Assembly (NCBI RefSeq): GCF_021026375.1
Contig: NZ_JAJNDB010000007.1
Location: 248,001-312,000 of the forward strand
Length of the DNA stretch: 64,000 nt
Direction of reading: 5' to 3'
From: Actinomycetospora endophytica
GTDB taxonomy: Bacteria > Actinomycetota > Actinomycetes > Mycobacteriales > Pseudonocardiaceae
In this document: one piece after another, positions 21,548-57,990 of the stretch
Layout: each line of letters begins with the position of its first letter
Position numbering within the stretch: position 1 is the stretch's first letter
Notes under the pieces: generated by a model
Seen by the model: only the letters and a program-made list of their open reading frames with translations
The model's database searches: none
What the model was told of the DNA's origin: nothing
Made by a program: the position numbers and the translations under genes

Positions 21548-22939
21548 ATGACCCGTCGCATCGTCGTCGTCGGTGGTGACGCCACCGGGATGAGCGCGGC
21601 GAACACCGCGTTGCGGCACGGCGGCTCCGCCTCCTATGAGGTGGTCGTGCTGGAGTGCGGGCACTACACGTCGTACTCCGCCTGTGGCATCCCGTACTGG
21701 ATCGCCGGCGACGTCACCGAGCGCGACGACCTCATCGCCCGGGCCCCCGAGCAGCACCGCGAGGCCGGCATCGACCTGCGGATGCGTACCGAGGTGACCG
21801 CGGTCGACCTCGACAAGCAGGTGGTGTCGTTCCGCGCCGTCGACGGCGACGGCCAGGACGGCGAGCTCGAGTACGACGACCTCGTGCTCGCCACCGGCGC
21901 GCGCCCGATCCGGCCGCCGCTGGACGGGATCGACGCCGAGGGCATCTTCGGGGTGCAGTCGCTCGAGGACGGCGAGGCGATCCTCGACGACCTGACCGGA
22001 CGCGACCTGCGCCGGGCCGTCGTCGTGGGCGCGGGGTACATCGGCGTCGAGATGGCCGAGGCGATGCTGCGGCGAGGCCTCGAGGTGACCGTCGTCGACC
22101 AGGCCCCGGAGCCGTTCACCCAGGTCGACCCGGACATGGGCGCGCTGGTGCGCGAGGCCATGGAGGGCATGGGCATGACCGTGCTCACCGGCACGCCGGT
22201 CGAGGGCTTCGACGTCGGCGACGACGGGCGGGTGCGGGCGGTCCGGACGGGGGACGCGACGCTGCCGGCCGACGTCGTCGTGCTGGGCCTGGGGGTGCGG
22301 CCGAACGTCTCGCTCGCCTCCGAGGCGGGCCTGACGATCGGGGAGTCCGGCGGGATCGCCACCGACGTGCGGATGCGCTGTGTGGGCCACGGGAACGTGT
22401 GGGCGGGCGGGGACTGCGTGCAGACCCACCATCGGCTCTCCGGTCGCGGGGTCGCGATCGCGCTGGGCACGCACGCGAACAAGCACGGGCGGATCATCGG
22501 CACGAACCTGGCCGGCGGGTACGGCGCCTTCCCCGGCGTCATCGGCACCGCGATCTCCAAGGTGTGCTCACTGGAGATCGGCCGCACGGGGCTGGGGGAG
22601 GCCGAGGCGACGGCGGCCGGGTTCGCGTACGTGACGGCGACGATCGAGTCGTCGAACGTCGCCGGCTACCTGCCCGGCGCGGAGATGATGACGGTGAAGG
22701 TGCTCGCCGAGCAGCGTTCCGGGCGGCTGCTGGGGGCGCAGATCGTCGGCCGGGCGAACGCGGCCAAGCGGATCGACGTGTTCGCGACGGCGATCTGGAA
22801 CGGCATGGGCGCCGAGGAGATGACCTTCATGGATCTCTCGTACGCCCCGCCGTTCTCGCCGGTGTGGGACGCGGTGCTCGTCGCGGCGCGCAAGGCGACG
22901 AAGGCGGTCGAGGCGGACAGCCCGGCGTCACCGGCATAG
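21548..22939 (+). CDS. CoA-disulfide reductase-like FAD/NAD(P)-dependent oxidoreductase
   Basis: The 463-residue protein has an FAD-binding start RRIVVVGGDATGMSAAN, a single redox cysteine Cys46 in SYSACGIPYW, a second nucleotide fold VVVGAGYIGVEMAE and a C-terminal dimerisation domain (SYAPPFSPVWD). This is the single-cysteine group of pyridine nucleotide-disulfide reductases: CoA-disulfide reductase, persulfide reductase or NADH oxidase. The substrate cannot be chosen from sequence. Its TAG stop is formed by the left end of the palindrome at 22936. Confidence 0.9.
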   Translation: MTRRIVVVGGDATGMSAANTALRHGGSASYEVVVLECGHYTSYSACGIPYWIAGDVTERDDLIARAPEQHREAGIDLRMRTEVTAVDLDKQVVSFRAVDGDGQDGELEYDDLVLATGARPIRPPLDGIDAEGIFGVQSLEDGEAILDDLTGRDLRRAVVVGAGYIGVEMAEAMLRRGLEVTVVDQAPEPFTQVDPDMGALVREAMEGMGMTVLTGTPVEGFDVGDDGRVRAVRTGDATLPADVVVLGLGVRPNVSLASEAGLTIGESGGIATDVRMRCVGHGNVWAGGDCVQTHHRLSGRGVAIALGTHANKHGRIIGTNLAGGYGAFPGVIGTAISKVCSLEIGRTGLGEAEATAAGFAYVTATIESSNVAGYLPGAEMMTVKVLAEQRSGRLLGAQIVGRANAAKRIDVFATAIWNGMGAEEMTFMDLSYAPPFSPVWDAVLVAARKATKAVEADSPASPA

Positions 22940-23013
22940 GTGCGCTGCGCGCCTGTGAGCACTAAGTGACGCCATAGCGTCAATTAGTGCTCACAGGCGC
23001 GCAGCGCACCTAT
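22936..23013. repeat. Palindromic repeat family 1, copy A (supplies both convergent stops)
   Basis: Two 37-base arms (22936-22972 and 22977-23013) differ from perfect complementarity by one base, around a four-base loop. Both ends read ATAGGTGCG outward-in, so the TAG of the flavoprotein gene (22937-22939) and the TAG of the convergent DUF2631 gene (23010-23012 on the minus strand) are symmetric parts of it. It should act as a bidirectional terminator. Confidence 0.92.
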
Positions 23014-23318
23014 CGGCGCCAGGACGTCCGGTTGCGGATGATCGCGCCGAGCGACAACGCGAAGAAGGCGACGGCGAGGACGACGAGCCAGATGTCCTCC
23101 TCCTTGCCGACGTGGTTGCCGTGGATCATGATCAGGCAGATCGCGGCGACCACGAAGCCGGCGAAGTGGGCCACCTTCGGGTAGTGCCCGTGCCATCCCC
23201 ACTCGACCGAGGGCTCGTCGTCGGACGAGACGCCGTTGACGACGACGGCCCGGTGCTCGTGACCGTGATGCTCCACGTCACCGTGGTCGGTACGGGCCGG
23301 GCTCGTGCTGCTCGCCAC
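23010..23318 (-). CDS. DUF2631 family small membrane protein
   Basis: The 102-residue protein has a His-rich N-terminus ([16 protein letters not shown]), [22 protein letters not shown] and two hydrophobic helices ending in RNRTSWRR. It matches DUF2631, which lies close to dxr in mycobacteria (Rv2876). Function is unknown; the histidines could bind metal. GTG 23318; the stop lies in palindrome copy A. It diverges from dxr, whose start is 150 bases away. Confidence 0.85.
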
Positions 23319-23468
23319 CGGATCCTCCTCGCGGGTCGTTCCGGGGCCTGCCCGGGATGTCGGGGGTCAACCTATCCGGCCGCGGCGCTCGGGGCGATCC
23401 GTGGGTGGGCGGGAAATGACGCGGTGTGTCGTTCCCGTCGTGACCGCCGACGGGACAGGATGGCGGGG

Positions 23469-24689
23469 ATGGCCACCGCACACCCCACCGCTCCGCCCTC
23501 CCAGCCCATCCCCGTCCGCCGCCCGGTGGTCCTGCTCGGCTCGACCGGGTCGATCGGCACGCAGGCGCTGGACGTCGTGCGGGCCCATCCGGACCGGTTC
23601 GTGGTCACCGGGCTCGCGGCGGGCGGCGGGCGCCCGCAGCTGCTGGCCGCGCAGGCCGCCGAGTTCGGGGTGGCGACGGTGGCGGTGTCGGCGCCGTCGG
23701 CCGCGGGTGCGGTCGAGGCGGCGCTGCGCGCGGCGGGCTCGCGCGCCACCGTGACCGCGGGCCCGGAGGCGATGACCGACCTCGCCGGGTCCGGCGGGCG
23801 CGGCACCGTCGTCCTCAACGCCGTCGACGGGTCACGGGGCCTGTCGCCCACCCTCGCGGCGCTGCACACCGGCGCGACGCTCGCGCTCGCGAACAAGGAG
23901 TCGCTGGTGGCGGGCGGTCCGCTCGTCACCCGGGCGGCCACCCCAGGCCAGATCGTCCCGGTGGACTCGGAGCACTCCGCGATCGCACAGTGCTTGCGCT
24001 CGGGGGCCGCGCGCGAGGTGGGCCGCATCGTGCTCACCGCGTCCGGCGGGCCGTTCCGGGGCCGCAGCCGCGCGCAGCTCGCCCAGGTCTCCCTCGACGA
24101 CGCCCTCGCGCACCCGACCTGGGCGATGGGACCCGTCGTCACGCTGAACTCGTCCACGCTGGTGAACAAGGGTCTCGAGCTCATCGAGGCGCACCTGCTG
24201 TTCGGGGTGCCGTACGAGCGCATCGACGTGGTGGTCCACCCGCAGTCGATGGTCCACTCGATGGTCACCTTCACCGACGGCGCCACGATCGCGCAGGCCA
24301 GCCCGCCGGACATGCACCTGCCGATCGCGCTCGCCCTCGGCTGGCCGGAGCGCCTGGCCGGGGCCTCGCCGCGGGAGACGTTCGCGTCGCCGTCGGCCTG
24401 GACGTTCGAGCCCCTCGACGCGACCGCGTTCCCGGCCGTCGACCTCGCCCGCGCGGCCGGGTCGGCGGGCGGCTGCCTGCCCGCCGTGTTCAACGCCGCG
24501 AACGAGGAGGCCGTCCGCGCGTACCTCGCCGGGCAGGGGCACTGGCTGGGCATCGTCGACACCGTGGCGGAGGTGCTCAACGCGGCCGGCGGGTGGTCGC
24601 GCGACCCGGCGTCGGTGGCCGACGTGCTGGCCGCCGAGGAGTGGGCGCGGGCCCGGGCCGGGGAGCTGCTGGGGGCGGCGCGCCGCTGA
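23469..24689 (+). CDS. dxr: 1-deoxy-D-xylulose 5-phosphate reductoisomerase
   Basis: Dxr (IspC) makes 2-C-methyl-D-erythritol 4-phosphate, the first committed MEP-pathway step. The NADPH loop [37 protein letters not shown] and the metal-site region [22 protein letters not shown] are present. From ATG 23469 the protein is 406 residues. An in-frame ATG at 23460 is too close to the GGACAGG site, so 23469 is preferred. ispG of the same pathway lies two genes downstream. Confidence 0.97.
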
Positions 24690-24743
24690 TTCCCCCCGGG
24701 GCGCAACGTGATCTCCACAAGGTCCCGGATACCGTGACGCCTC

Positions 24744-26060
24744 GTGATGCTCGTCGTCGGGATCGTGCTCTTCGCGCTCGGCCTGCTCTTCTCGATCGCC
24801 TGGCACGAGCTCGGCCATTTCACGGCCGCTCGCCGGTTCGGGGTGCGGGTGCCGGAGTTCATGGTCGGGTTCGGCCCGACGCTGTTCTCCCGCCAGCGCG
24901 GCGAGACCTCGTTCGGGATCAAGGCCATCCCGCTGGGCGGCTACATCCGCATGATCGGGATGGTGCCGCCGGCGCCGGGTGAGCGGATCGGTCGCAGCCG
25001 CCGGTCCGGGCCCTTCCAGGGGCTCATCGACGACGTCCGGGCCGACTCGGCGCGCGACATCATGCCCGGCGACGAGGACCGGCAGTTCTGGACCCGCAAG
25101 CCGTGGCAGCGGATCATCGTCATGTTCGCCGGGCCGTTCATGAACCTGATCCTCGCCGCGGTGCTGTTCGTCATCGTGCTCATGGGCTTCGGGATCCCGA
25201 CCTCGCAGCCGGTGGTGAGCACGGTCAGCGCCTGCGTCGTCCCCGCCTCGCAGGCCACCCCGGACAACCGCTGCCCCGCCGGCGCGCCGCTGACCCCCGC
25301 GGCCCAGGCCGGGTTCCGCGCCGGTGACCGCATCGTGAGCTTCGAGGGGCGCACGTTCGACTCCTGGCAGGACCTGCAGGTGGCGATCCGCGACGCCTCC
25401 GGCACGGTCCCCGTCGTCGTCCAGCGTCCGCAGCCGAACGGCACCGTGCAGACCCTCACGCTCTACCCGAAGCTCATCGAGACCCAGCTGCTCGACCTGG
25501 ACTCGGCGCAGTCCGGGCAGCCGCGGTACGTGACCGGGTCGTTCCTCGGGCTCACCCCGATCCAGCCGGTGATGCGTCAGACACCGGCCCAGGTCCTGGA
25601 CTACACGGGCCAGATGTTCTCCAACGTGGTCACCAGCGTGGCCGCGCTGCCGCACAAGGTCCCGGCGCTGTTCGGCGCGGTCTTCCTCGGTGAGCAGCGC
25701 GACGCGACCGGACCCGTCAGCGTCGTCGGGGTCTCGGTGATCGGCGGCGAGGTGCTCGCGTCCGACCAGCCGGTCGCCGAGGAGCTCGCGACGATGCTGC
25801 AGCTGCTGGCCGCGGTGAACGTCTCGTTGTTCCTGCTCAACCTGCTGCCGATCCTGCCGCTCGACGGCGGGCACATCCTGCCCGCGCTCTGGGAGGCGGC
25901 GAAGAAACGGCTGGCGCGGCTGCGCGGGCGTCCGGACCCCGGTCCGGTCGACATGGCCCGGCTGATGCCGATCGCCTACGGGTTCGCGATCCTGATCATG
26001 CTCTACGGCGGGCTCGTGATCGTGGCCGACATCGTCAACCCCATCAAGCTGAACCTCTGA
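24744..26060 (+). CDS. rip1: Site-2 intramembrane metalloprotease (Rip1/RseP family)
   Basis: This zinc protease cleaves membrane anchors, such as anti-sigma factors, within the membrane. The HELGH active site is at residues 21-25 in the first helix, a PDZ domain lies in the middle (AAQAGFRAGDRIVSFEGRTF) and the last motif is NLLPILPLDGGHIL, which supplies the third metal ligand. Length 438 residues. TACCGT ends eight bases before the GTG, so a leaderless promoter is likely; ATG 24747 is an alternative start. The order dxr-rip1-ispG is the mycobacterial one. Confidence 0.96.
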   Translation: MMLVVGIVLFALGLLFSIAWHELGHFTAARRFGVRVPEFMVGFGPTLFSRQRGETSFGIKAIPLGGYIRMIGMVPPAPGERIGRSRRSGPFQGLIDDVRADSARDIMPGDEDRQFWTRKPWQRIIVMFAGPFMNLILAAVLFVIVLMGFGIPTSQPVVSTVSACVVPASQATPDNRCPAGAPLTPAAQAGFRAGDRIVSFEGRTFDSWQDLQVAIRDASGTVPVVVQRPQPNGTVQTLTLYPKLIETQLLDLDSAQSGQPRYVTGSFLGLTPIQPVMRQTPAQVLDYTGQMFSNVVTSVAALPHKVPALFGAVFLGEQRDATGPVSVVGVSVIGGEVLASDQPVAEELATMLQLLAAVNVSLFLLNLLPILPLDGGHILPALWEAAKKRLARLRGRPDPGPVDMARLMPIAYGFAILIMLYGGLVIVADIVNPIKLNL

Positions 26061-26136
26061 CGACTTCCCCGTGAGGTCCGCCCGCCGATGCCGCGTCTCA
26101 CGTGGCACGGCGGCGGCGGGACCGGGTCGGCTGTAG

Positions 26137-26142
26137 CAGACT
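26137..26142 (+). promoter_or_regulatory. -10 box CAGACT of a probable leaderless ispG promoter
   Basis: CAGACT lies seven bases before the ispG ATG within CTGTAGCAGACT; TAGCAG three bases earlier is an alternative. No ribosome site is seen before the ATG. Confidence 0.35.
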
Positions 26143-26149
26143 GGGTGGC

Positions 26150-27313
26150 ATGACGATCGATCTGGGCATGCCGGAGGCGCCCGCGGTGCTCGCGCCGCGA
26201 CGCACGACCCGTCAGCTCGACGTCGGGGGAGTCGGCGTGGGCAGCGACCACCCGGTGTCGGTGCAGTCGATGACCACGACCCTCACGGCGGACGTCAACG
26301 CCACCCTGCAGCAGATCGCGGAGCTCACCGCCGCGGGCTGCGACATCGTGCGCGTCGCCTGCCCGAGCGCCGACGACGCCGAGGCGCTCCCGGCGATCGC
26401 GAAGAAGTCGGGCATCCCGGTCATCGCGGACATCCACTTCCAGCCGAAGTACGTGTTCGCCGCGATCGACGCCGGGTGCGCCGGCGTCCGCGTGAACCCG
26501 GGCAACATCAAGAAGTTCGACGACAAGGTCGGCGACATCGCGAAGGCGGCCAAGGACGCCGGGATCCCGATCCGCATCGGCGTCAACGCCGGGTCGCTCG
26601 AACCGGGGATCATGGCCAAGCACGGCAAGGCGACGCCCGAGGCGCTCGTCGAGTCGGCGCTGTGGGAGGCCTCGCTGTTCGCCGAGCACGACTACCACGA
26701 CATCAAGATCTCGGTGAAGCACCACGACCCGGTGACGATGGTGCGCGCCTACGAGCTGCTGGCCGAGCAGTGCGACTACCCGCTGCACCTCGGCGTCACC
26801 GAGGCCGGGCCGACGTTCCAGGGGACGATCAAGTCGGCGACCGCGTTCGGGGCACTCCTGTCCCGCGGCATCGGCGACACCATCCGCGTCTCGCTCTCGG
26901 CGCCGCCGATCGAGGAGGTCCGGGTGGGCCTGTCGATCCTGGAGTCGCTGAACCTGCGCCCGCGCAAGCTCGAGATCGTGTCGTGCCCCTCCTGCGGGCG
27001 CGCGCAGGTCGACGTCTACAAGCTCGCCGACGAGGTCACCGCGGGCCTGGAGGGCATGGAGGTGCCGCTGCGCGTCGCCGTCATGGGCTGCGTCGTGAAC
27101 GGTCCGGGCGAGGCGCGCGACGCCGACCTGGGCGTGGCGAGCGGCAACGGCAAGGGCCAGATCTTCGTCAAGGGCGAGGTCATCAAGACCGTCCCCGAGG
27201 CGCAGATCGTCGAGACGCTGATCGACGAGGCGATGCGCCTGGCCGAGGAGGCCGGTGAGGGCGAGCTCGCGGGCGGACAGGCGGGTGGCACGCCGAGCGT
27301 GACCGTCGGGTAG
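26150..27313 (+). CDS. ispG: 4-hydroxy-3-methylbut-2-enyl diphosphate synthase
   Basis: IspG (GcpE) reduces MEcPP to HMBPP with a [4Fe-4S] cluster in the MEP pathway. [29 protein letters not shown] and [13 protein letters not shown] are conserved TIM-barrel blocks. The cluster cysteines are in [13 protein letters not shown] and [17 protein letters not shown]. Length 387 residues. The stop TAG is the first triplet of palindrome copy B. Confidence 0.97.
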
Positions 27314-27385
27314 GTGCGCTTCGCGCACGTGAGCAGAAATTGACGTCAGGGCGTCACTTTGTGCTCACGAGCGCGGAGCGCACCT
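27311..27385. repeat. Palindromic repeat family 1, copy B (supplies the ispG stop)
   Basis: It begins TAGGTGCGC, contains the core GTGAGCAGAAATTGACG, and returns through TGTGCTCAC to GCGCACCT. The arms are imperfect. It lies between two genes in the same direction (ispG and the S9 peptidase) and provides the TAG of ispG. Confidence 0.85.
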
Positions 27386-27406
27386 GGCGTGGTGGGATCG
27401 GCGTCG

Positions 27407-29473: not shown

Positions 29474-29487
29474 GTCCGGACACGAAA

Positions 29488-29517: not shown

Positions 29518-29533
29518 GGGAGGTCTCGGGGTG

Positions 29534-31929: not shown

Positions 31930-32940
31930 ATGAGACCGCATGTCCTCGCCTCGTGCGCGGTCTCGCTCGACGGCTTCCTCGACGACGCGTCCGATGAGCG
32001 GCTGATCCTGTCCGGGCCCGCCGACCTGGACCGGGTCGACGGGGAGCGGGCGGGGGTGGACGCGATCCTGGTCGGCGCGGGCACCGTGCGCGCCGACGAT
32101 CCGCGGCTGCTCGTGCGCTCGGCCGAGCGGCGCGACGTGCGCGTCTCGTGGCGCCGGACGCCGTCGCCGCTGCGGGTCGTGCTCTCCGGCAAGCCCCTCG
32201 ACCCGGCCGCGCGCGTGCTCACCGAGCCGGGCGCCGAGACGGTGGTGCTGGACGGGTCGCCGGGCGAGGTCCTCGACGACCTGGCCGGCCGGGGTGTCGT
32301 GCGGCTCATGATCGAGGGCGGCGCCGGCGTCCTGCGGGAGTTCCTGACGGCGGGTGCGGTCGACGAACTGCAGCTGGTCGTGGCGCCGGTGCTGGTGGGG
32401 GCCGGACCGCGGTTCACCGGGGCGCCGGGGGTGAGGGCGGCGCTCGTCGAGACCCGGTCGGTCGGCGACGACGTGCTGCTGCGCCACCGCTTCGGCCCGC
32501 CCGACGACCGCCACCTCGCCGAGGCCTGCGTCCTCACCGAGCGCTGCCCGCCCAGCGAGAGCGCGTTCAGCGTCGGGTGCCTGGTGGTCGCTGCCGACGG
32601 CGCCGTTCTCGGCTCGGGCTGGTCCCGGCGCGACGACCCGCTCGACCACGCCGAGGAGGGCGTCCTGCGGGAGCTGGCGGGCGACCCGCGGCTGCCCGGC
32701 GCGACGCTCTACAGCTCCCTGGAGCCCTGCGGGCAGCGGGCGTCCCGGCCGGACTCGTGCGCGACGCTGATCGAGCGGGCCGGCATCGGCCGGGTCGTCT
32801 ACGCCTGGCGCGAGCCGCCGGAGTTCGTCGCCCGCCCGTCCGGGATCGCGGCGCTCGAGCGCGCCGGGATCACGACCACGCACCTGCCGCGGTGGGAGCC
32901 GCTGGCCCGGCGGTCCGCCCGGTGGCCTTCGGCCATGTGA
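31930..32940 (+). CDS. RibD-like fusion with reversed order: reductase then deaminase
   Basis: Residues 1-195 match the RibD C-terminal (dihydrofolate-reductase-like) pyrimidine reductase: ASCAVSLDGFLDD, ILVGAGTVRADDPRL, MIEGGAGVLREFL and ELQLVVAPVLVGAG. Residues 200-320 match a cytidine-deaminase-type zinc domain: DHAEEGVL and LEPCGQRASRPDSC supply the His, Glu and two Cys. Canonical RibD has the deaminase first. A role in riboflavin or deazaflavin supply, or in modified-pyrimidine metabolism, is possible. The CATGTGA stop lies within palindrome copy C, which encodes the final SAM. Confidence 0.88.
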   Translation: MRPHVLASCAVSLDGFLDDASDERLILSGPADLDRVDGERAGVDAILVGAGTVRADDPRLLVRSAERRDVRVSWRRTPSPLRVVLSGKPLDPAARVLTEPGAETVVLDGSPGEVLDDLAGRGVVRLMIEGGAGVLREFLTAGAVDELQLVVAPVLVGAGPRFTGAPGVRAALVETRSVGDDVLLRHRFGPPDDRHLAEACVLTERCPPSESAFSVGCLVVAADGAVLGSGWSRRDDPLDHAEEGVLRELAGDPRLPGATLYSSLEPCGQRASRPDSCATLIERAGIGRVVYAWREPPEFVARPSGIAALERAGITTTHLPRWEPLARRSARWPSAM

Positions 32941-32994
32941 GCAGAAATTGTCGTCAGGGCATCAATTTGTGCTCACGAGCGCGCAGCGCACCTA
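32921..32994. repeat. Palindromic repeat family 1, copy C (overlaps the end of the RibD-like gene)
   Basis: The left outer arm GGTGGCCTTCGGCCAT and core GTGAGCAGAAATTG are coding; the TGA at 32938 is the stop. The right side is TTTGTGCTCAC then GAGCGCGCAGCGCACCT. The left outer arm is of the GGTGGCC type and the right one of the GCGCACCT type, so the copy is chimeric. Confidence 0.85.
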
Positions 32995-33007: not shown

Positions 33008-34531
33008 ATGCATGGTGCGCTGCTCGTCGCCGGGACCACCAGCGACGCGGGCAAGAGCGTGCTCGTGGCGGGCCTCTGTCGATGGCTGCACCGGCAGGGC
33101 GTCGACGTGGCGCCGTTCAAGGCGCAGAACATGAGCAACAACTCCGTCGTGACCACCGACGGCGGGGAGATCGGCCGGGCGCAGGCGCTGCAGGCGGCGG
33201 CGTGCGGCCTGGCGCCGAGCGTCGCGTTCAACCCGGTGCTGCTCAAACCGGGCTCGGACCGCACCAGCCAGGTGGTCGTGCACGGCCGCGTCGACGGTTC
33301 GGTCACGGCGCTGTCCTACCGGGAGCGCAAGGCGGCGCTGCTCGAGGTCGTCACGCAGACGCTCACCGACCTCCGGGCCCGCCACGACGTCGTGATCTGT
33401 GAGGGCGCCGGCTCGCCCGCGGAGATCAACCTGCGCGCCACCGACATCGCCAACATGGGACTCGCGCGCGCCGCGGACCTGCCCACCCTCGTCGTCGGGG
33501 ACATCGACCGCGGCGGCGTGCTCGCCCACCTGTTCGGGACGCTCGCCGTGCTGGAGCCCGAGGACCAGGCCCTGATCGCGGGGTTCGTCGTCAACAAGTT
33601 CCGCGGCGACCCGGCGCTGCTCGAGCCCGGCCTCGCGCAGCTGGAGAGGCTCACCGGGCGCCCGACGCTCGGCACGATCCCGTTCGCGCCGGAGCTGTGG
33701 ATCGACGCGGAGGACTCGCTCGGCCACGACGGCGCCGTGGGGCGTCCGGCCGCGCCGCTCGGTGCCGACTGGCTCCGGGTCGCCGTCGTGCGCCTGCCGC
33801 GGGTCTCCAACGGCACCGACGTCGACGCGCTCGCGGCCGAGCCCGGGGTGTCCGTCCGCTACGTCACCGCACCGGGCGAGCTCACCGGCGCCGACCTCGT
33901 CGTGCTCCCGGGCTCCAAGACCACCGTCTCCGACCTCGCGTGGCTGCGCGAGACCGGGCTCGCCGACGCCGTGCTCGCCCACGCCCGGGCCGGCCGGACC
34001 ACGCTCGGGATCTGCGGCGGCTACCAGATGCTCGGCCGCGCGGTCGATGACCCGCACGGGGTCGAGGCCGCGCCCGGGCGCCATGCTGGGCTCGGGCTGC
34101 TCGACGTCGACGTCGTCTTCGACCCCGACAAGCACCTCGGCAACCCCGCGGGCACGGCGCTCGGCGAGACGGTCGAGGGCTACGAGATTCACCACGGCCG
34201 CGAGGTGCGTGGCCACGGTTCGGCACCGCTGGTCACGCTCGCCGACGGCACGCCGGAGGGGGTCGACGCCGGCGCGGTGCTCGGTACGCACTGGCACGGC
34301 CTGCTCGAGAACGACGGGTTCCGGCGGCGTCTGCTGGAACGGGTCGCGACGACGACGGGCCGGGCGTTCCGGGTGTCGACGACGACGTCGTTCGCGGCGG
34401 CCCGCGCCGCTCAGCTCGACCTGCTGGCCGACCTCGTGGAGTCCCATCTCGACACGGCGGCGCTGGAGCATCTGATCGAGCACGGAGCGCCGTCCGGGCT
34501 ACGGACTGTTCCGCCGGCCGGCGCCCCCTGA
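33008..34531 (+). CDS. cobQ: Cobyric acid synthase CobQ
   Basis: CobQ amidates four carboxyl groups of adenosylcobyrinic acid a,c-diamide using glutamine and ATP. The P-loop-like start [37 protein letters not shown] and [14 protein letters not shown] form the N-terminal domain. The C-terminal glutaminase domain has its cysteine at Cys336 ([10 protein letters not shown]) and the His in THWHG. Length 507 residues. It stands apart from the other cobalamin genes at 46396-50969. TAGGCT ends nine bases before the ATG and overlaps the end of palindrome copy C. Confidence 0.97.
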
Positions 34532-34532
34532 G

Positions 34533-34585
34533 GTCAGCGATGGTCCGTTGCTGACGTCTGACGTCAGCAACGGACCATCGCTGAC
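34533..34585. terminator. Perfect 26-bp palindrome between cobQ and a convergent gene
   Basis: Arms at 34533-34558 and 34560-34585 are perfectly complementary with a single central base. Each arm also contains GTCAGC and GCTGAC, so smaller hairpins are possible. It begins two bases after the cobQ stop and ends 16 bases before the convergent SRPBCC stop, so it should terminate both. Confidence 0.85.
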
Positions 34586-34601
34586 AACGGGGTGGGGAGA
34601 T

Positions 34602-39744: not shown

Positions 39745-40671
39745 ATGACGGAGACGCAACGCAGTCCCGACGGCGCCGCTCTCGACGACCGCGGTCCGGA
39801 GCGGGCGGCCGGACTGCGCGTGGAGGCGGTGCGCGTCCCGCAGAGCGGGATCGCCACCGAGGCGCGCGCCGCCGCGGTCGTCTGGCAGCGCGAGATGATC
39901 CGGTTCTTCAAGGACCGGACCCGGATCGTGTCCTCGCTGGCCCAGCCGCTGCTGTTCCTGTTCGTGCTGGGCAGCGGCCTCGGATCACTGCTCTCCAGCG
40001 CGGGCGGGCGCAGCGGCGGGGTCTCGCTCCCGACGTTCCTGTTCCCCGGCGTGCTCGCGATCTCGGTGCTGTTCACCGCGGCGTTCTCGGGGATCTCGAT
40101 CGTGTGGGACCGGGAGTTCGGCTTCCTGCGCGAGATGCTCGTGGCGCCGGTGTCGACGACGTCGATCCTGCTCGGCAAGGCGGTCGGCGGCGCCACCGTC
40201 GCGACGCTGCAGTGCATCCTGCTGCTCGCGCTGGCGGGGCTCGTCGGGGTGCCCTACGACCCGCTGATGTTCGTCGAGCTGCTCGTGCTGATCTTCCTCA
40301 TGGCGTTCATGATCTGCGCGCTCGGGCTGATGCTCGCGGCGCGGCTCAAGCAGGTGCAGACCGCCATGCCGATGGTCCAGCTGATCATCACGCCGCTGAT
40401 GTTCCTGTCCGGGGCGCTCTTCCCGCTCGGGAACCTGCCGACCTGGCTGACGGTGCTCACGCACATCAACCCGATGACCTACGCCGTCGAGCCGCTGCGC
40501 CACGTGGTGTTCGCGCGGTTGAACGCCTCGGCGGCCGACCTCGCGCGCTACGACCCGGGCATCCACTGGGGCTCGTTCCTGGTCCCGACGTGGCTGGAGA
40601 TCGTGCTGACGATCGGCTTCTCGGTGCTCCTGCTCGGGCTCGCCGTGACCCGGTTCCGGCGGACGGAGTAG
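39745..40671 (+). CDS. ABC-2 type transporter permease (DrrB type)
   Basis: The 308-residue protein has a 50-residue cytoplasmic start and six hydrophobic segments, with the ABC-2 motif WDREFGFLREMLVAPVSTTSILLGKAVGG and LTHINPMTYAVEPLRHVVF near the end. It forms an exporter with the preceding ATPase. Drug or lipid efflux is the usual role; the substrate is not evident. A perfect palindrome lies after the stop. Confidence 0.93.
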   Translation: MTETQRSPDGAALDDRGPERAAGLRVEAVRVPQSGIATEARAAAVVWQREMIRFFKDRTRIVSSLAQPLLFLFVLGSGLGSLLSSAGGRSGGVSLPTFLFPGVLAISVLFTAAFSGISIVWDREFGFLREMLVAPVSTTSILLGKAVGGATVATLQCILLLALAGLVGVPYDPLMFVELLVLIFLMAFMICALGLMLAARLKQVQTAMPMVQLIITPLMFLSGALFPLGNLPTWLTVLTHINPMTYAVEPLRHVVFARLNASAADLARYDPGIHWGSFLVPTWLEIVLTIGFSVLLLGLAVTRFRRTE

Positions 40672-40684
40672 TCGCCGAACGGGA

Positions 40685-40730
40685 CGAACGGCTCGTTGGT
40701 CACCTTCGAAGGTGACCAACGAGCCGTTCG
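40685..40730. terminator. Perfect 46-bp palindrome between convergent genes
   Basis: Arms 40685-40706 and 40709-40730 are perfectly complementary around CG (centre TTCGAA). It separates the ABC permease stop from the convergent mycothione reductase stop and should terminate both. The segment CGTTGGTCAC resembles CGTTGCTGAC of the palindrome at 34533. Confidence 0.85.
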
Positions 40731-40762
40731 TGCGGTCCGGGGCCGGCCCGGGGCCGGACCGG

Positions 40763-45064: not shown

Positions 45065-46282
45065 GTGACGACCACCGGGGACCTCGAGGGCCTGCTGCGC
45101 GAGCACGCGCCGCGGGCCCTCGCGGCCCTCGCCCGGCGCCTCGGGGACCTCGCCGACGCCGAGGACGCCGTCCAGGAGGCCCTCATCGCGGCGGCCGGCG
45201 CCTGGCCGGAGCGCGGGGTGCCGGACGACCCGACGGCGTGGCTGGTCACCGCCGCCGTGCGCCGCCACGTCGACCGCGTCCGCAGCGACACCTCGCGGCG
45301 GGCCCGGGAGGACGCCGTGGTCGTCGCCGACCCGGGGCTCCCGTCGTCGCTGGCGCCCTCGCGCGACGACTCGCTCGCCCTGCTCTTCAGCTGCGCGCAT
45401 CCGGCGCTGACCCCGTCGGCGGCGATCCCGCTGACCCTGCGCGCGGTCGGCGGCCTGGCCACGCCCGAGATCGCCCGGCTGCTCCTGCTCACCGAGCCCG
45501 CGGTGAACCAGCGGATCCACCGGGCCAAGCAGGCCGTCCGCGCTTCCGGGGACCGGTTCCGGCTCCCGACGCCGCAGGAATGGCCCGACCGGCTGCGCGC
45601 GGTGCTGCACGTGCTCTACCTGCTCGCGACGGTCGGGAACGGTCCCGACGACGCGGGCCCCCCGGAGGCCGCCGGCGAGGCGCTCCGGCTGCTGCGGGAG
45701 CTCGACCGGCTGCTGCCCGACGAACCCGAGGTCGGCGGGCTGCTCGCGCTGGTCCTGCTCACCGAGGCCCGGCGGCCGGCCAGGACCGGCCCGGTCGGCG
45801 AGCTGGTCCCGCTCGACGAGCAGGACCGCTCGGCCTGGGACGCCGCGCTGATCGCCGAGGGCACCGAGCGGGTGGAGCGGGCGATGCGCCGCGGCCGGGT
45901 CGGGGCGTACCAGTTGCAGGCCGCGGTCGCCGCCGTGCACGCCGAGGCGGCGGACTACCGCGACACCGACTGGCCCCAGATCGCCGGGCTCTACGAGGTG
46001 CTCGGCCGCATCGACCCGTCGCCGGTGGTGGCGCTCAACCGGGCCGTCGCGCTCGCCGAGGCGGGGGAGCCCCGGGCGGGGCTGGCGCTGCTCGACGCGC
46101 TCGACGGCGAGGCCGGCCGGCTCGGGCACCGGCTGCCGGCGGCGCGTGCCCACCTGCTGGTGCGCGCCGGCGACCTCGCCGCGGCCCACCACGCCTACGG
46201 CGCGGCCGCGGCCGCGGCGACCAGCGTCGCCGAGCGGGACCTGCTGGTGCTGAAGGCCGCGAGGTGCGCTCCGCGCCCGTGA
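45065..46282 (+). CDS. ECF sigma factor of the ECF42 type with C-terminal extension
   Basis: The 405-residue protein has sigma regions 2 (ALAALARRLGDLADAEDAVQEALIAA) and 4 (LRAVGGLATPEIARLLLLTEPAVNQRIHRAKQ) in the first 160 residues. A 200-residue helical TPR-like extension follows (DTDWPQIAGLYEVLGRIDPSPVVALNRAVALAEAGEP). This is ECF42, which lacks an anti-sigma factor and is regulated through the extension. The TGA is formed by the core GTGAGCAG of palindrome copy D. Confidence 0.92.
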   Translation: MTTTGDLEGLLREHAPRALAALARRLGDLADAEDAVQEALIAAAGAWPERGVPDDPTAWLVTAAVRRHVDRVRSDTSRRAREDAVVVADPGLPSSLAPSRDDSLALLFSCAHPALTPSAAIPLTLRAVGGLATPEIARLLLLTEPAVNQRIHRAKQAVRASGDRFRLPTPQEWPDRLRAVLHVLYLLATVGNGPDDAGPPEAAGEALRLLRELDRLLPDEPEVGGLLALVLLTEARRPARTGPVGELVPLDEQDRSAWDAALIAEGTERVERAMRRGRVGAYQLQAAVAAVHAEAADYRDTDWPQIAGLYEVLGRIDPSPVVALNRAVALAEAGEPRAGLALLDALDGEAGRLGHRLPAARAHLLVRAGDLAAAHHAYGAAAAAATSVAERDLLVLKAARCAPRP

Positions 46283-46335
46283 GCAGAAATTGACGCTCCG
46301 GCGTCAATTTCTGCTCACATGGCCGGAGGCCACCT
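46262..46335. repeat. Palindromic repeat family 1, copy D (overlaps the sigma gene stop)
   Basis: The core is a perfect 18-base stem, 46279-46296 with 46301-46318, around TCCG, starting GTGAGCAGAAATTGACGC. The left outer arm is AGGTGCGCTCCGCGCC; the right outer arm is ATGGCCGGAGGCCACCT. This mixed pair is the mirror image of copy C. Confidence 0.9.
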
Positions 46336-46387: not shown

Positions 46388-46395
46388 CGCGCCTC

Positions 46396-50969: not shown

Positions 50970-50996
50970 CGCCGGGCTGCGCCCGCCGCGCGGCAT

Positions 50997-51056: not shown

Positions 51057-51098
51057 GGCGGGCGGGGCCGGGCACGCCCGCCGGCCCGCCGAACCCGC

Positions 51099-51707: not shown

Positions 51708-51721
51708 CGGTGTCCTCCCGG

Positions 51722-52702: not shown

Positions 52703-53565
52703 GACACGAACCGCTGCCGCAGGTGCCCGATGCCGGTGCACCAGGACGTCAGCTCGTCGCCCTCGGCGAGGAAGCGCGGCGGCGTCATGCCCGCGCCGAT
52801 GCCCGACGGCGTGCCGGTGAAGATCACGTCGCCGGGCAGCAGCGTCACGATCGCCGAGAGCTTCGCGACCAGCGCCGGGACCGAGAAGATCATGGCCGAG
52901 GTCCGGCCCTTCTGGACGCTCTCGCCGTTGACCAGGCAGCCCAGCTCGAGGTCGTCGGGGTCGATCCCGTCCGCCCGGAGCTCGTCGGTGGTGACCAGGG
53001 CCGGGCCGACGGGGGAGAAGCCGGGGAACGACTTGCCCATCCCGAACTGCGGCGGGGGTGCCGCGAACTGGGCGACCCGGTCGGAGAGGTCCTGGCCCAG
53101 CGTGAGGCCGGCGACGTGGTCCCAGCCGTCGGCCTCGGCGACCCGGTGCCCGCCCGCCCCGATCACCGCGACCAGCTCGACCTCCCAGTCGACGTTCCCG
53201 CCGGTCAGCCGGACGTCGCCGCGCGGGCCGGTGAAGCTGGACGCGTACTTGGTGAACACGACGGGTTCGTTCGGCAGCTCGAAGCCGGACTCGGCGGCGT
53301 GGTCGCGGTAGTTCAGGCCGATCGCGAAGACCTGGGTCGGGCGTGGGGTGACGGGCCCGAGCGCCGTCGGGTCGAGCGGTGCCGCCGAGGTGAACGACGC
53401 GGCCGCGGCCCAGGCCCGCAGCTCGTCCCACCGGGCGTAGACCGCCTGCGGGTCGGCGTCGAACCGGCCCCCGGAGGCGTCCGCGACGTCGATCCCGCGG
53501 GGCTCGTCGGGATCGGTGCCGGGCTCGAGCAGGGTGAGCCGGCCGCTGACAGTGGTGATTCGCAT
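52699..53565 (-). CDS. Fumarylacetoacetate hydrolase family protein
   Basis: The 288-residue protein matches the FAH family: FAIGLNYRDHAAESG, FTKYASSFTGP, DWEVELVAVIG (metal-binding Glu residues), GQDLSDRV, SFPGFSPVGPALVTTDEL and DVIFTGTPSGIG. FAH-family members act as hydratases, decarboxylases or hydrolases of oxo-acids from aromatic breakdown. ATG 53565 follows GGAGG. In the cluster it would process the ring-cleavage product. Confidence 0.9.
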   Translation of the reverse strand: MRITTVSGRLTLLEPGTDPDEPRGIDVADASGGRFDADPQAVYARWDELRAWAAAASFTSAAPLDPTALGPVTPRPTQVFAIGLNYRDHAAESGFELPNEPVVFTKYASSFTGPRGDVRLTGGNVDWEVELVAVIGAGGHRVAEADGWDHVAGLTLGQDLSDRVAQFAAPPPQFGMGKSFPGFSPVGPALVTTDELRADGIDPDDLELGCLVNGESVQKGRTSAMIFSVPALVAKLSAIVTLLPGDVIFTGTPSGIGAGMTPPRFLAEGDELTSWCTGIGHLRQRFVS

Positions 53566-53586
53566 GCTGGAGGTCCTCCCGACCCG

Positions 53587-54818
53587 TCAGACCAGCGCCG
53601 TCACGCCGTCGGTCAGGCCCAGCAGGGCCCGGCCGTACACCTCGGTCGAGATCGCCGGGCTGATCACCGCGTGGCGCGACGCGACCTCCGAGTCCCGCCA
53701 GATCCGCTGCAGCGGGCTGGTCTCCGCGAACGACGACGCGCCGTGGGCCGAGACGAGCACGCGGATGGCCTCGCGGGCGTTCTCGATCGCCGCGCCCGTG
53801 TCCATCCGGACGCGGGCCCGCGCCGCGTAGTCGGGATAGACGCCGTCGACGGCGGCCTGGTCGATGTCGGCGGCCGCGCGGTAGGCGAACAGGTGGGCCG
53901 CGTCGACCAGCGAGGCGGCCTTGGCACCGCGAGCTGCACCGTCGGCGCCTCGGTCTGGACCTCGTAGAACGTGTACGAGATCGAGCGCTTCGGCGCCTTC
54001 TCGATCACCAGGTCCAGCGCGGCCTGGGCGAGCCCGAGCTGCGGGCCGGCCAGCACGAGCGCCGCGACCGGGATGAATGCCGAGCGGTAGAGCGCCTCGT
54101 CGGTGTGCTCCGTGGCGTAGCGGCCGCCGATCGCCGCCGGGATCGAGATCACCCGGTGGCCGGGGACGAAGACATCCCGGGCGACGAGCGTGTTCGACCC
54201 GGTCCCGCGCATGCCGGCGACGTACCAGGTGTCGGAGATCGACAGCTCGCTCATCGGCACCAGCGCCAGGCCCTGGTCGACGATCTCGCCGCGCTCGTCG
54301 GGCACCGGGAACCCGACGACGGCCCACTGCGCGTGCAGGCAGCCCGATGCCCAGCCCCAGGACCCGGACAGGCGGTACCCGGCCTCGACCCGCGTCGCCT
54401 CGCCGGTCGGGGCGAGCACGCCGGCGATGCGGTCACCCGGGGAGTCCGCCCAGAGATCGCGCTGCGCCCGGTCCGGATAGAGACCGGCGAAGAAGGAGCA
54501 GACGTTCATCAGCGTCGCGGCCCACGACGTCGAGCCGCAGCCGCGGGCGAGCTCGCGGGAGACCTCGAGCTTGGTGCGCATGTCGGTCTCGAGCCCGCCG
54601 AGCCGCCGCGGCTTCATGATCGCGAACAGGTCGGCCCGGTCGATCAGCTCGATGTTCTCCTCGACCACCCGACGGTCGGCCTCGGTCTGCGCGGCGTTGC
54701 GGGCGAGCACCGGGACGATCTCGCGGGCCCGTCCGACGAGCTCCGCGCGCAGGGCACGGGCCTCGTCGGACGTGCCGGGACGGTCGAGCGAGCAGTCGGA
54801 CATCGACGTCGAGGACAT
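53587..54818 (-). pseudogene. Acyl-CoA-dehydrogenase-like flavin monooxygenase (HsaA type), frameshifted
   Basis: From ATG 54818 (GGAGG upstream) the frame encodes an acyl-CoA-dehydrogenase-fold protein: GLETDMRTKLEVSRELARGCGSTSWAATLMN, WGWASGCLHAQWAVVGFPV and DVFVPGHRVI. This resembles HsaA-like two-component flavin hydroxylases. Near 53927 (after EAPTVQLA) the family similarity jumps to another frame, which continues KAASLVDAAHLFAYRAAADIDQAA to a stop at 53587. One base is missing there. Restored, the protein would be about 410 residues, the normal length. The rest is intact, so the break is recent or a sequencing error. Confidence 0.75.
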
Positions 54819-54869
54819 GCGGGCACCTCCGGTCGGTGGTCACGGACGGCGTGACCTGCGCCACGCTCG

Positions 54870-54899
54870 ACGCTAGGGCGCTAAGTTATAAGTTGTCAA
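54870..54899 (-). promoter_or_regulatory. Promoter of the catabolic cluster
   Basis: On the minus strand TTGACA (54899-54894) and TAGCGT (54875-54870) are 18 bases apart and about 50 bases before the monooxygenase start. The AAGTTATAAGTTG words that overlap the spacer may be part of the GntR site. Confidence 0.6.
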
Positions 54900-54938
54900 T
54901 CTGCGCTACGCTGCTCCGCGTACCGGGAGATCACGGGG

Positions 54939-55676
54939 GTGGGCGTGGCGGGCGATGCGGGTTCCGGGGTGCGGTCGGTGGCCTCGCGCAAGGCCTCGGC
55001 GGTCGACCTCGTGCTGCACGAGATCCGGCGCTCGATCCTGTCCGGCGAGCTGCCGCCCGGGCAGCCGTTCACGGTCCCGGCGCTGACCGAACAGCTCGGC
55101 GTCAGCCACGTCCCGGTCCGTGAAGCGCTACGCCAGCTCGAGGCCCAGGGGCTGATCACCCTGAGCCCGTCGCGCAGCGCGATGGTCACCCCGCTCGACG
55201 CGGACGACCTGCGCGCGATCTACCGGCTCCGGATCACCGTGGAGCCCGAGCTCGCCGCGCTCTCTGCGCCCGGCCGGACCGACGCCGAGGTCGACGAGCT
55301 CGACCGGATGGTCCGCGCGACCTTCGGCGAGGTGCTCGGCGAGGCGTTCTGGGCGCCGCACCGGGAGTTCCACGCCGCGATGATCGAGCCGGCCGCCAGC
55401 GGCTGGGACCGCCGGATGCTCGCCCCGCTGTGGGACGCCTCGGAGCGCTACACGCGGCTGGTCTTCGACCCCGTCGGCGCCCCGGAGTCGTTCGCCGCGC
55501 ACCGGGCGCACGCCCACGACGAGCTCGTGCGCGCCGCCCGCTCCCGCGACCAGGAGCAGGTCCGGGCCGCCGTGCGCGAGCACCTCGAGAACAACCTCGC
55601 GACCATGCTCGAGGGGATGCGCTCGCTGGACGCGACCCGTCGTCGGGAGTGGAGCGGGCAGGACGCCACGGCGTGA
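54939..55676 (+). CDS. GntR family (FadR/VanR type) regulator
   Basis: The 245-residue protein has the winged helix with IRRSILSGELPPGQPFTVPALTEQLGVSHVPVREALRQLEAQGLI and an FCD ligand domain (LRITVEPELAALS, HREFHAAMI, HDELVRAARSRD). It is divergent from the minus-strand catabolic cluster, with promoters in the 120 bases between, so it should control that cluster. FCD regulators bind small acids, often pathway intermediates. Confidence 0.93.
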   Translation: MGVAGDAGSGVRSVASRKASAVDLVLHEIRRSILSGELPPGQPFTVPALTEQLGVSHVPVREALRQLEAQGLITLSPSRSAMVTPLDADDLRAIYRLRITVEPELAALSAPGRTDAEVDELDRMVRATFGEVLGEAFWAPHREFHAAMIEPAASGWDRRMLAPLWDASERYTRLVFDPVGAPESFAAHRAHAHDELVRAARSRDQEQVRAAVREHLENNLATMLEGMRSLDATRRREWSGQDATA

Positions 55677-55756
55677 ACCGGACGGCGCGTCGCAGACCCG
55701 GCGAAACCCCCGTTGACCAGCAGGGATGTCCCAGGGAGCGGGTGTAGCTTGCGGGC

Positions 55757-56635
55757 GTGTCCGATCAGTGGGACGGCCGGGGCCTGCCTCCGGTCGCCGC
55801 CGAGCGGGTGCGTCGTGCCGCGTCGGGCGGTCCGTGGACCTCGATGCTGACCGTGCCCTCGGCCGCCGGGCTCTCGGCCACCGAGTTCGAGCCGGTCGGC
55901 GAGGTGATGGGCTCGATCGTCGAGAACATCGGCTGGCGTGGGTACGGCGGCTGCGGGGCGTGGGGCGGCGGGTTCGGCGGCCCGTTGGGCCCGATGACCC
56001 CGGTGCCCGCCTTCGCGCCCTACGTCGACGCGTTGCGCCACGGCTACGACACCGCGCTGCACCGCATGCAGCTCGAGGCCTCCGGGATCGGCGCGGACGG
56101 CGTCGTCGGGGTGACCCTCGCCGCGACGCCGTTCGACCAGGGCAGCCGCGAGTTCACCGCGCTCGGCACCGCCGTCCGGTCCCGCCGTGCGCACGACCGC
56201 CCGCCGCGGCCGTTCTGCACCGAGCTGGCCGGTCAGGACGTGGCGAAGCTCCTCGGGGCGGGCTGGCTGCCGGTCAGCATCGCCTACGGGATCGCGATGC
56301 TCGTCCGCCACGACGACATGCGGACGCGCAACCAGGTGTCCTGGATGGGCGGGAACACCGAGGTCACCGGTTACACCCAGCTCGTGACGGCGGCCCGCGC
56401 CCAGGCCCGCAAGGACTTCGCCGGGCGCATCCGGGCGATCGGCGCCGAGGGCGCGATCGTCTCCGCGATGGGCGTGGGCATGCACGAGATCGAACCGTCC
56501 GAGAACCACCGCGACCACATCGCCGAGGCCACCGTCTTCGGCAACGCCCTGCTCGCCGTCGACCATCCGACGACCCCCGCGACCACGTCGTCGTTGACGT
56601 TCCTGCCCCTGCGCCCCACCCGGGAGACCTCGTGA
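55757..56635 (+). CDS. Tandem YbjQ-like (heavy-metal-binding domain) protein
   Basis: The 292-residue protein has two YbjQ-type modules. The first (about 28-145) has GEVMGSIVENIGWRGYGG, DALRHGYDTALHRMQLEASGIGADGVVGV and FTALGTAV. The second (about 150-275) has FCTELAGQDVAKLLGAGWLPV and a degenerate copy. A Gly/Trp-rich GCGAWGGGFGGPLGP insertion is unusual. YbjQ proteins form ring-shaped oligomers of unknown function; metal binding is assumed from the family name only. TAGCTT ends six bases before the GTG. Confidence 0.82.
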   Translation: MSDQWDGRGLPPVAAERVRRAASGGPWTSMLTVPSAAGLSATEFEPVGEVMGSIVENIGWRGYGGCGAWGGGFGGPLGPMTPVPAFAPYVDALRHGYDTALHRMQLEASGIGADGVVGVTLAATPFDQGSREFTALGTAVRSRRAHDRPPRPFCTELAGQDVAKLLGAGWLPVSIAYGIAMLVRHDDMRTRNQVSWMGGNTEVTGYTQLVTAARAQARKDFAGRIRAIGAEGAIVSAMGVGMHEIEPSENHRDHIAEATVFGNALLAVDHPTTPATTSSLTFLPLRPTRETS

Positions 56636-57468
56636 CCGAGTCCGACGCACCCACCGCGACGGGAGTCCCGTCCGACGCCATGCGCCGGCTGGCCCACATG
56701 CGGCCCGGCCAGGCGACGAGCATGTTCACCTCGGACCTCTCGGTGAACGAGTTCCTGCTGGTGCGCGAGGCCGGGTTCCGGCCGTTGGGGCTGGTCCTGG
56801 GCTCGAGCATCTACCACGTGGGCTTCCAGGTGGGCCGCTGGGGGAAGAACCAGGAGCTCGACACGCTCTCGCAGGCGATGTACCACGCCCGCGAGCTCGC
56901 GATGACCCGCATGGAGGCCGAGGCCGACCAGCTCGGCGCCGACGGGATCGTCGGGGTGCGGCTCGACATCGAGTTCAAGGAGTTCGGCAACGATCTCGCC
57001 GAGTTCATCGCCGTCGGGACCGCGGTCTCGGCGGAGAGCGCGCCGCCGGAGGGCGGGTCCTGGCGCAACGTCCACCGTCAGCCCTTCACCTCCGACCTCT
57101 CCGGGCAGGACTTCTGGACGCTGATCCAGGCCGGATACGCCCCGCTCGGCATGGTGATGGGCACCTGCGTCTACCACATCGCGCACCAGGGGATGTTCCG
57201 CGCGATGAGCAACATCGGGCAGAACGTCGAGCTGCCGCAGTACACCGAGGGGCTCTACGACGCCCGCGAGCTCGCCATGAGCCGCATGCAGGCCGAGGCC
57301 GAGGCGCTGCACGCCGAGGGCATCGTCGGGGTCCGGTTGCGGGCGCACGGTCACCGCTGGGGCGGGCACACGACGGAGTTCTTCGCGATCGGCACCGCGG
57401 TCCGCCCGCTGCGCGCCGACCACCACATCCCGACCCCGCAGCTCGTGCTGCCGCTGACGGACGGGTGA
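56632..57468 (+). CDS. Second tandem YbjQ-like protein
   Basis: The 278-residue protein again has two modules, each with FTSDLSVNEFLLVREAGFRP or FTSDLSGQDFWTLIQAGYAP, a G-x-V-x-GS/TC turn, a YHARELAMTRMEAEADQLGADGIVGVRL type helix and an F-I-AVGTAV end. The modules are more alike than in the preceding gene. GTG 56632 overlaps that gene's stop (GTGA). The two proteins together hold four modules and could build a hetero-ring; this is inference. Confidence 0.82.
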   Translation: MTESDAPTATGVPSDAMRRLAHMRPGQATSMFTSDLSVNEFLLVREAGFRPLGLVLGSSIYHVGFQVGRWGKNQELDTLSQAMYHARELAMTRMEAEADQLGADGIVGVRLDIEFKEFGNDLAEFIAVGTAVSAESAPPEGGSWRNVHRQPFTSDLSGQDFWTLIQAGYAPLGMVMGTCVYHIAHQGMFRAMSNIGQNVELPQYTEGLYDARELAMSRMQAEAEALHAEGIVGVRLRAHGHRWGGHTTEFFAIGTAVRPLRADHHIPTPQLVLPLTDG

Positions 57469-57472
57469 GGGT

Positions 57473-57949
57473 ATGACGACGGGTCCCGACGACGGGGGTG
57501 GCGCCTTGGAGCCGCGCGCGTCCGGTGCGGGCGGGGTGGAGCCGACCGGCCTCGGTCCGATGGCCGACGTGGCCGTGCTCGCCCAGGCGCTGCGCACCGA
57601 CCGCGCCGACGTCGCCTCCTACGCCCGGGTGCTCTCCGGTGCCCTCGGGGATGCGCTCCCACCGGGGACCGTGCAGGTCGGCTACCGGCGGGGACTGTCC
57701 GACCGGCTCGCTGGGCGGGAGGGCCGCGCCGAGTCGGTACTGGTCCACGGCGAGGGCCGCGACCTGGAACTGCGGGCCGAGGGCGAGCGGGTGCACGCCG
57801 AGGTCCGGCGGGTGTCGGGCGGGGTCGTGATCAGCCGGCGCCGGGTCGACGTCGAGCAGTGGCTGCAGGCGCTGGCCGAGGACCTGTCCGCGATCGCCGC
57901 GCGTGACGCCTCGGCCCGGCAGGCGTTCGAGCGGTGGCTTCGCATGTGA
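57473..57949 (+). CDS. Hypothetical protein following the YbjQ pair
   Basis: The 158-residue protein starts four bases after the YbjQ stop. Its predicted beta-rich middle (VQVGYRRGLSDRLAGREGRAESVLVHGEGRDLELR) and VEQWLQALAEDLSAIAARDASARQAFERWLRM helices are not a family I recognise, although the end resembles proteins found beside YbjQ genes. No signal peptide. Stop TGA and final Arg-Met come from palindrome copy E. Confidence 0.7.
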   Translation: MTTGPDDGGGALEPRASGAGGVEPTGLGPMADVAVLAQALRTDRADVASYARVLSGALGDALPPGTVQVGYRRGLSDRLAGREGRAESVLVHGEGRDLELRAEGERVHAEVRRVSGGVVISRRRVDVEQWLQALAEDLSAIAARDASARQAFERWLRM

Positions 57950-57990
57950 ACAGATGTGGTCGCCCTGGCGACCACATTCGTTCACATGCG
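57941..57990. repeat. Palindromic repeat family 1, copy E (supplies both convergent stops)
   Basis: Arms 57942-57963 and 57968-57989 match at 20 of 22 positions around CCTG. Both ends read GCATGTGAAC inward, so each convergent gene ends Arg-Met-stop with its ATGTGA in the palindrome (57944-57949 and 57987-57982). The right flank GCGCGTCAGCGCG resembles the outer arm of the other copies. Confidence 0.88.

Follow-up and report, generated by a model that had tools for sequence, protein, structure and literature searches.

Palindromic repeats at gene 3′ ends supply stop codons in Actinomycetospora endophytica

In Actinomycetospora endophytica, a family of palindromic repeats lies at the 3′ ends of genes and, in the copies examined, contains the stop codons of the genes that read into it. 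We analyzed a 64,000-nucleotide stretch of this organism (the window; contig C15:248001-312000 of a genome of 6.98 Mb and 17 contigs) and call its principal repeat family A. Copies of family A are dispersed, hold a characteristic position and frame at gene ends, and have a core of fixed length whose stem covaries and is typical of the species, while C-termini are unchanged at six of the nine gene ends compared with orthologues. We consider it probable that family A is a non-coding repeat like the repetitive extragenic palindromic (REP) elements, which multiplied in this lineage, is found exactly at gene 3′ ends and likely serves as a two-way terminator or 3′-end hairpin.

The original prediction, made from the window, described five long palindromes that share a core and include the neighboring gene's stop codon. 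All five are real and lie where they had been placed (Table 1). Half-core matches in the window number 8, against 0.10 expected from shuffles, and full GTGARCA...TGYTCAC cores number 4, against 0.00 expected. The shared core held for four copies, which belong to family A, but the pattern missed the copy at 57941, a member of a sister family, B (CATGTGARYGGAT...). The predicted wording GTGARCAGA was also wrong for the copy at 22936, where the letters are GTGAGCACTA. When genes were called with our own codon-based caller, a neighbor's stop codon lay inside the palindrome in five of five copies, for a total of seven gene ends. The copy at 32921 has lost the TAG of its left edge; reading passes through the left arm to a TGA in the core, and the last residues of gene 31930-32940 are encoded by the element. 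The copy at 46262 carries unlike mini-hairpins, GCGC-TCC-GCGC on the left and GGCC-GGA-GGCC on the right.

A search of the whole genome with the core bore out the predicted dispersal, as the family A half-core, with up to three mismatches allowed, matches at 152 places on each strand (control, 1 and 1). The full element of about 76 nt consists of TAGGTG, a mini-hairpin, a 40-nt core hairpin, a second mini-hairpin and CACCTA, with a core of the form GTGAGCA[GC][TA]AATTGACG-6 nt-mirror. Closely similar copies of about 74 nt lie beside unrelated genes. For closer study we drew 56 distinct copies from three sources (the window, C10:1-800000 and loci returned as best core matches), leaving out copies with more than six mismatches to the core or near the end of a locus. 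A self-complementary stem of at least 3 bp is present in 109 of their 112 arms; with arms fixed at 19 nt and stems of at least 4 bp, the count is 99 of 112, compared to 13.8% of shuffled arms. The left and right stems differ in 30 of the 53 copies in which both arms fold. Thus, the arms behave as separate units and not merely as the outer part of one long palindrome. TAGGTG, which with CACCTA forms terminal inverted repeats like those of a miniature inverted-repeat transposable element (MITE), is present at 80 of 112 edges. The whole element folds very stably when its arms match, with −74.3 kcal/mol (z −16.8) for the RNA of the 22936 copy; across the seven copies folded, z ranged from −3.3 to −16.8, which puts a stable hairpin at the stop or shortly past it.

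Family A is tied to gene ends. We counted the arms as part of the element and defined a gene end as a gene reading in from within 400 nt. Convergent genes flank 37 of the 56 copies and tandem genes the other 19; none lies inside a gene or between divergent genes. A gene end reads in on 93 of the 112 sides (19 have none), and all 93 genes stop inside the element, as predicted for placement at 3′ ends. These stops fall at the edge TAG (62), elsewhere in an arm (3) or in the core (28, of which 18 are the TGA of GTGAGC). Where a gene side carries TAGGTG, the motif is in frame and used as the stop in 62 of 68 cases and out of frame in 6 (p = 2.6e-23 compared to one third). Since TAGGTG is also found on 12 of the 19 gene-free sides, the T of TAG belongs to the element.

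Six more recurrent palindrome types (B-G), mostly near gene 3′ ends, are present in C10:1-800000. Types B and D are long and homogeneous in sequence, type E also lies within called genes (4/17), and one element resembling family C (C10:62737-62850) has intact arms with an irregular, apparently rearranged stem between them. We used type G, a hairpin of the ordinary terminator type, for comparison. In this contiguous 800 kb, stops overlap the hairpin itself in 16/40 cases for A, 10/18 for B, 5/10 for C, 0/6 for D, 3/18 for E, 0/8 for F and 0/25 for G. When an equal margin of 18 nt is allowed for all families (in A and C this margin corresponds to the arm, conserved in sequence), the counts are 40/40 for A, 3/8 for F and 7/25 for G; 16 of the 25 ends at type G are at least 20 nt away. 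Family A is therefore sharply unlike G and F. Types B, C and D also hug the stop, and what sets family A apart is its own conserved TAG, which serves as an in-frame stop.

That the element sets the ends of proteins, as the original prediction had it, was not borne out. At six of nine gene ends (those of genes 21548, 23010 and 26150 and of the C10 genes ending at 500602, 512516 and 535359), orthologues share the final position, some of them without the palindrome, an outcome that the prediction itself had named as contrary to it. The element thus usually replaces the letters of a stop that already existed. For gene 23010-23318, all 15 relatives end in TSWRR, with TGA in 14 and TAG in 1, while the A. 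endophytica gene uses the TAG of the element; no hairpin was found at this end in the 15 relatives at the threshold used. At the end of gene 21548-22939, 6 of 15 relatives have a hairpin. Genes 21548 and 23010 (DUF2631) are adjacent in A. endophytica and, with overlapping CTAG stops, in one relative (G001; relatives are given G numbers). In G010 and G007, roughly 2 kb separates them, and recombination between elements is possible. We rejected overlapping convergent CTAG stops as the general form of the empty site, as they were found once (G001) and the flanks in A. endophytica do not fit a simple duplication.

GcpE (gene 26150-27313) ends at the same place in 16 relatives, with TAG in 8 and TGA in 8; one relative (G009) has a 40-nt hairpin over threshold, G015 has a visible but imperfect copy with arms, and G001, G003 and G011 retain arm-like remnants. 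For the ThiF-like gene C10:511341-512516 (Pfam ThiF/rhodanese), seven of seven relatives end in LPTY. A. endophytica and G010 have TAG and the element at this site, while by eye six relatives have TGA followed by another hairpin. This replacement by ordinary hairpins suggests that the element may have a terminator role. The MFS gene C10:533968-535359 ends at the same position in six of six relatives. It has TAG in A. endophytica, G010 and G003, TGA with a 40-nt hairpin just after it in G001, G007 and G015, and TGA with no hairpin, an empty site, in G016.

A protein from the window has its closest named relatives, at 79-81% identity, in Actinomycetospora, and we compared the core across this genus and beyond. 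The A. endophytica core is nearly confined to its own genome, as 2 of 40 other genomes match within one mismatch. The format is shared: all 18 Actinomycetospora genomes contain GTGARY-28-RYTCAC, in 61-261 copies each (control, 0-3). In a search of hairpin lengths from 26 to 56, every hairpin with these feet measured exactly 40 nt, both in 864 kb of A. endophytica (43 of 43) and in 344 kb of relatives (19 of 19), while the reversed control gave 2 and 3 hairpins with lengths of 38 or 46 nt. At the loci examined in other Actinomycetospora, 53 of 57 gene ends stop inside the core or within 24 nt before it, and four are 67-96 nt off. The TAG-armed form is common in three genomes, with 260 edge matches in A. 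endophytica, 173 in G010, 89 in G014 and 5 to 43 in the other 15 of the 18 genomes, several of which are near the control (1-6). In G010, hairpins of the GTGAAC type with 40 nt also occur as doublets about 80 bp apart (C1:15907-16027 and 893884-894006).

In a sample of 298 genomes of the order, GTGAGC-28-GCTCAC is most frequent in A. endophytica (192 copies), G003 (122), G295 (72) and G021 (66); each of the other 294 has 10 or fewer, and a second member of the genus of G021 has 1. G295 and G021 come from two other genera in the same taxonomic family; each has its own stems, with the feet at the same spacing. Their hairpins are near gene ends and have no TAG arms. Of the gene ends called there with a codon model trained on A. 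endophytica, 5 of 25 (G295) and 8 of 24 (G021) have the stop inside the core.

The stem changes in sequence and keeps its pairing. Among 106 distinct 40-mers, which were filtered by their ends only and many of which come from loci fetched by similarity to the A. endophytica core, stem columns 8-17 pair at 0.858 in register, compared to 0.18-0.33 when slid. In 32 hand-picked rows, most of them already known to pair, the covariation score was 0.550, compared to 0.137 after shuffling, and changes on both sides of the stem numbered 116 cells, compared to 33 in shuffles. Over the 40 bases, median differences were 6 within A. endophytica, 5 within G010 (from 7 copies, some found by similarity to those of A. 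endophytica) and 10 between the two. At the four compared sites that are occupied in both genomes, the paired copies differ at 8-12 bases. In G010 the copy is nearer its paralogues at all four sites, and in A. endophytica at three, C10:500619 being the exception. Occupation of these sites thus seems to predate the sequences now found there, a sign of turnover through conversion or repeated insertion.

Table 1. Palindromic elements and associated genes in the window (window positions).
Feature	Position	Strand	Relation to gene ends
Family A element, full form	22936..23013	.	TAG is the stop for both convergent genes
Genes flanking the 22936 element	21548-22939; 23010-23318	+; -	Stops end at 22939 / 23010
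Family A element	27311..27385	.	TAG 27311-27313 ends gene 26150-27313 (GcpE, PF04551)
Family A element, left edge TAG lost	32921..32994	.	Gene 31930-32940 (RibD_C/deaminase) stops at core TGA 32938-32940
Family A element	46262..46335	.	Gene 45065-46282 ends at core TGA 46280-46282
Family B element (CATGTGAACAGAT...)	57941..57990	.	TGA 57947-57949 and its mirror 57982-57984 stop two convergent genes
Palindrome, dispersed family E (GTCAGCGATG...)	34526..34592	.	Overlaps TGA 34529-34531 of gene 33008-34531
Palindrome, dispersed family F (GACGAACGGCTCGTT...)	40675..40740	.	Begins 3 bp past the TAG of gene 39745-40671

We examined several possible origins. No sign of an autonomous parent split by a gene was found, with no lone half-core present in 800 kb (11% of the genome), where all 23 forward half-cores are paired with the 23 reverse ones. 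A GTAG tag was rejected. The base before TAG at the 80 edges is G in 42, C in 20, A in 17 and T in 1, while other TAG stops of the 800-kb stretch are preceded by G in 58 of 114 cases and by A in 7 of 114, so G is not enriched and A is raised. Rfam gave no match to a known RNA family at gathering score in 144 kb, and the one copy searched had no match that would indicate phage or plasmid origin. A repeat near C10:508182-508330 proved to be a tandem pair of ordinary hairpins resembling type G (GAGCGAAGGGCCCC...; C10:508151-508360), with no Rfam match; many similar places were found in the seven relatives searched.

A model that we favor is as follows. As RNA or single-stranded DNA, the 40-nt core would fold into a hairpin of 18 bp. 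Copies would arrive by insertion at the stop, and the outer TAG of the arm would usually take over the gene's stop codon, leaving the protein unchanged. The constant format, the dispersal and the empty sites together argue for a copying mechanism. The position at 3′ ends, the two-sided symmetry and the conservation of the stem argue for use as a two-way transcription terminator or an mRNA 3′-end hairpin, the likeliest use in the cell. Since the element is identical on both strands, a single copy could serve two convergent genes. Where the edge TAG is the stop, the core begins about 15 nt downstream. A terminator hairpin that folds behind a ribosome is described as needing 10-15 nt of free RNA in part of one study (PMC4824070), and the spacing may be read as a fit with terminator folding, not as a test of it.

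Several results weigh against this model. No Y1 transposase (REP-associated tyrosine transposase [RAYT], PF01797) was found in any of the 18 genomes of the genus, although a very distant HUH enzyme could escape the search; the same search was positive in 5 of 14 control genomes, and we rejected a RAYT/REPtron as the engine. Nor did we find a clean target-site duplication. The bases past the 12 gene-free TA edges (C 5, G 5, A 1, T 1) are not enriched in the G that a TA duplication within TAG stops would leave, and such a duplication is not supported; empty sites exist among relatives, but the flanks there are too diverged for a duplication to be read. The C-termini differ from those of orthologues at three of the nine gene ends (31930 and the C10 genes 500655-501857 and 512586-513995). 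Sister families partly share the hugging of stops (with the 18-nt margin, 17/18 for B, 9/10 for C, 6/6 for D and 13/18 for E). Of the 93 stops, 31 are other than the edge TAG, and the 28 in the core are outside the fit of about 15 nt. A terminating ribosome at such a stop should melt the hairpin, and strong loss of terminator function at such stop distances is described for E. coli in part of the same study (PMC4824070). No U-tract is visible after the hairpin in the five window copies, for which no systematic count was made. Finally, the constant length of 40 nt exceeds what a terminator needs.

We also entertain, as a tentative proposal that is possible but doubtful, that a mobile or copying system of Pseudonocardiaceae, so far undescribed, recognizes a hairpin of exactly 40 nt from its length and its GTGARY/RYTCAC feet, irrespective of the stem, and sets copies right on stop codons. 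Stem families would then evolve separately in each species, as if stem and recognizer were replaced jointly, and the cell would use the copies as two-way terminators.

Family A could instead be a purely selfish repeat that inserted widely and survived only where harmless, at the stops of packed genes, with no role in termination or mRNA; we regard this as rather unlikely. The lineage-specific copy number and species-typical stems agree with it, as does the small gap between convergent genes (median 40 bp), which leaves little harmless space. However, space was often available, as the nearest gene on the 19 gene-free sides is 20-761 bp away from the core, and still the upstream stop falls within the element in every sampled case. 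A purely selfish repeat also accounts poorly for pairing that is kept through both-side stem changes between subfamilies and for the substitution of other hairpins in relatives at one locus.

That the copies are ordinary terminators, alike by shared ancestry or gene conversion without any mobility, is improbable. Several species do repeat hairpins at the same gene end, and hairpins after the stop are common in bacteria, as part of one report describes (PMC6060812). Against this stand orthologous stops that carry the element in some members of the genus and lack it in others, the closely similar copies of about 74 nt at unrelated genes, and the behavior of the other hairpins of A. endophytica, which vary in length and, for type G, are mostly clear of the stop. 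A DNA-level site for recombination, chromosome organization or protein binding that collects at gene ends, with the 40-nt length and GTGARY feet as its binding rule, would account for the 40 nt of 62 of 62 genus hairpins and for the recurrence of these feet, identically spaced, in two other genera, but is very improbable given the absence of Rfam (144 kb) and phage or plasmid (one copy searched) matches and a stem that changes freely, contrary to a long sequence-specific site.

Short repeats at stop codons have precedents. The mycobacterial interspersed repetitive units (MIRUs) are similar in size to family A and lie at stop codons, but they are not known to be palindromic, contain short reading frames and occupy stop/start overlaps within operons. 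The original prediction held that a family that ends reading frames is unusual. This kind was already in print, since both GTAG REPs and pneumococcal BOX repeats supply stop codons, as described in parts of two papers (Di Nocera, 2013, PMC3733652; Croucher, 2011, PMC3049150). The termini of GTAG REPs often give a TAG stop codon; GTAG REPs and REPtrons, like family A, are short, high-copy palindromes mostly between convergent or tandem genes, and in two diagrammed species, those between convergent genes are mostly 20 bp or less from both (PMC3733652). Like a GTAG REP, family A is a high-copy, extragenic palindrome of 20-40 bp near the 3′ ends of open reading frames. It differs from GTAG REPs, as parts of that paper characterize them, in having TAG at both ends, no fixed base before TAG, a core of 40 nt in every measured hairpin and no Y1 transposase in 18 genomes.

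BOX repeats encode the stop codons of 36 genes, with no strong evidence reported of truncation compared to orthologues, and SPRITE repeats resemble family A as terminator-like repeats enriched between convergent genes (PMC3049150). BOX is modular, can exceed 500 bp and has another host; in family A, every sampled incoming gene has its stop within the element. In Neisseria and Pasteurellaceae, DNA-uptake-sequence terminators are alike in that pairs of inverted repeats form terminator hairpins, which in N. meningitidis are most often between tail-to-tail genes, as reported in part of Kingsford (2007, PMC1852404). Unlike those terminators, as described there, family A has no single half sites (800 kb) and a stem whose sequence is free to change.

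We found no description in the open-access literature of repeats of this sort in Actinomycetospora or Pseudonocardia. As far as our searches show, the actinobacterial family, the full stop-codon fit of its sampled copies, and the fixed 40-nt format with exchangeable stems and no detectable RAYT are new. Family A offers a comparative case of repeats that settle on stop codons without harm to the protein, in 18 genomes of one genus that share one hairpin format and differ in stems and occupied sites. Two questions become testable in this genus, namely which agent disperses palindromic repeats in genomes that yield no RAYT and whether repeats of this sort turn into terminators of GC-rich actinobacteria.

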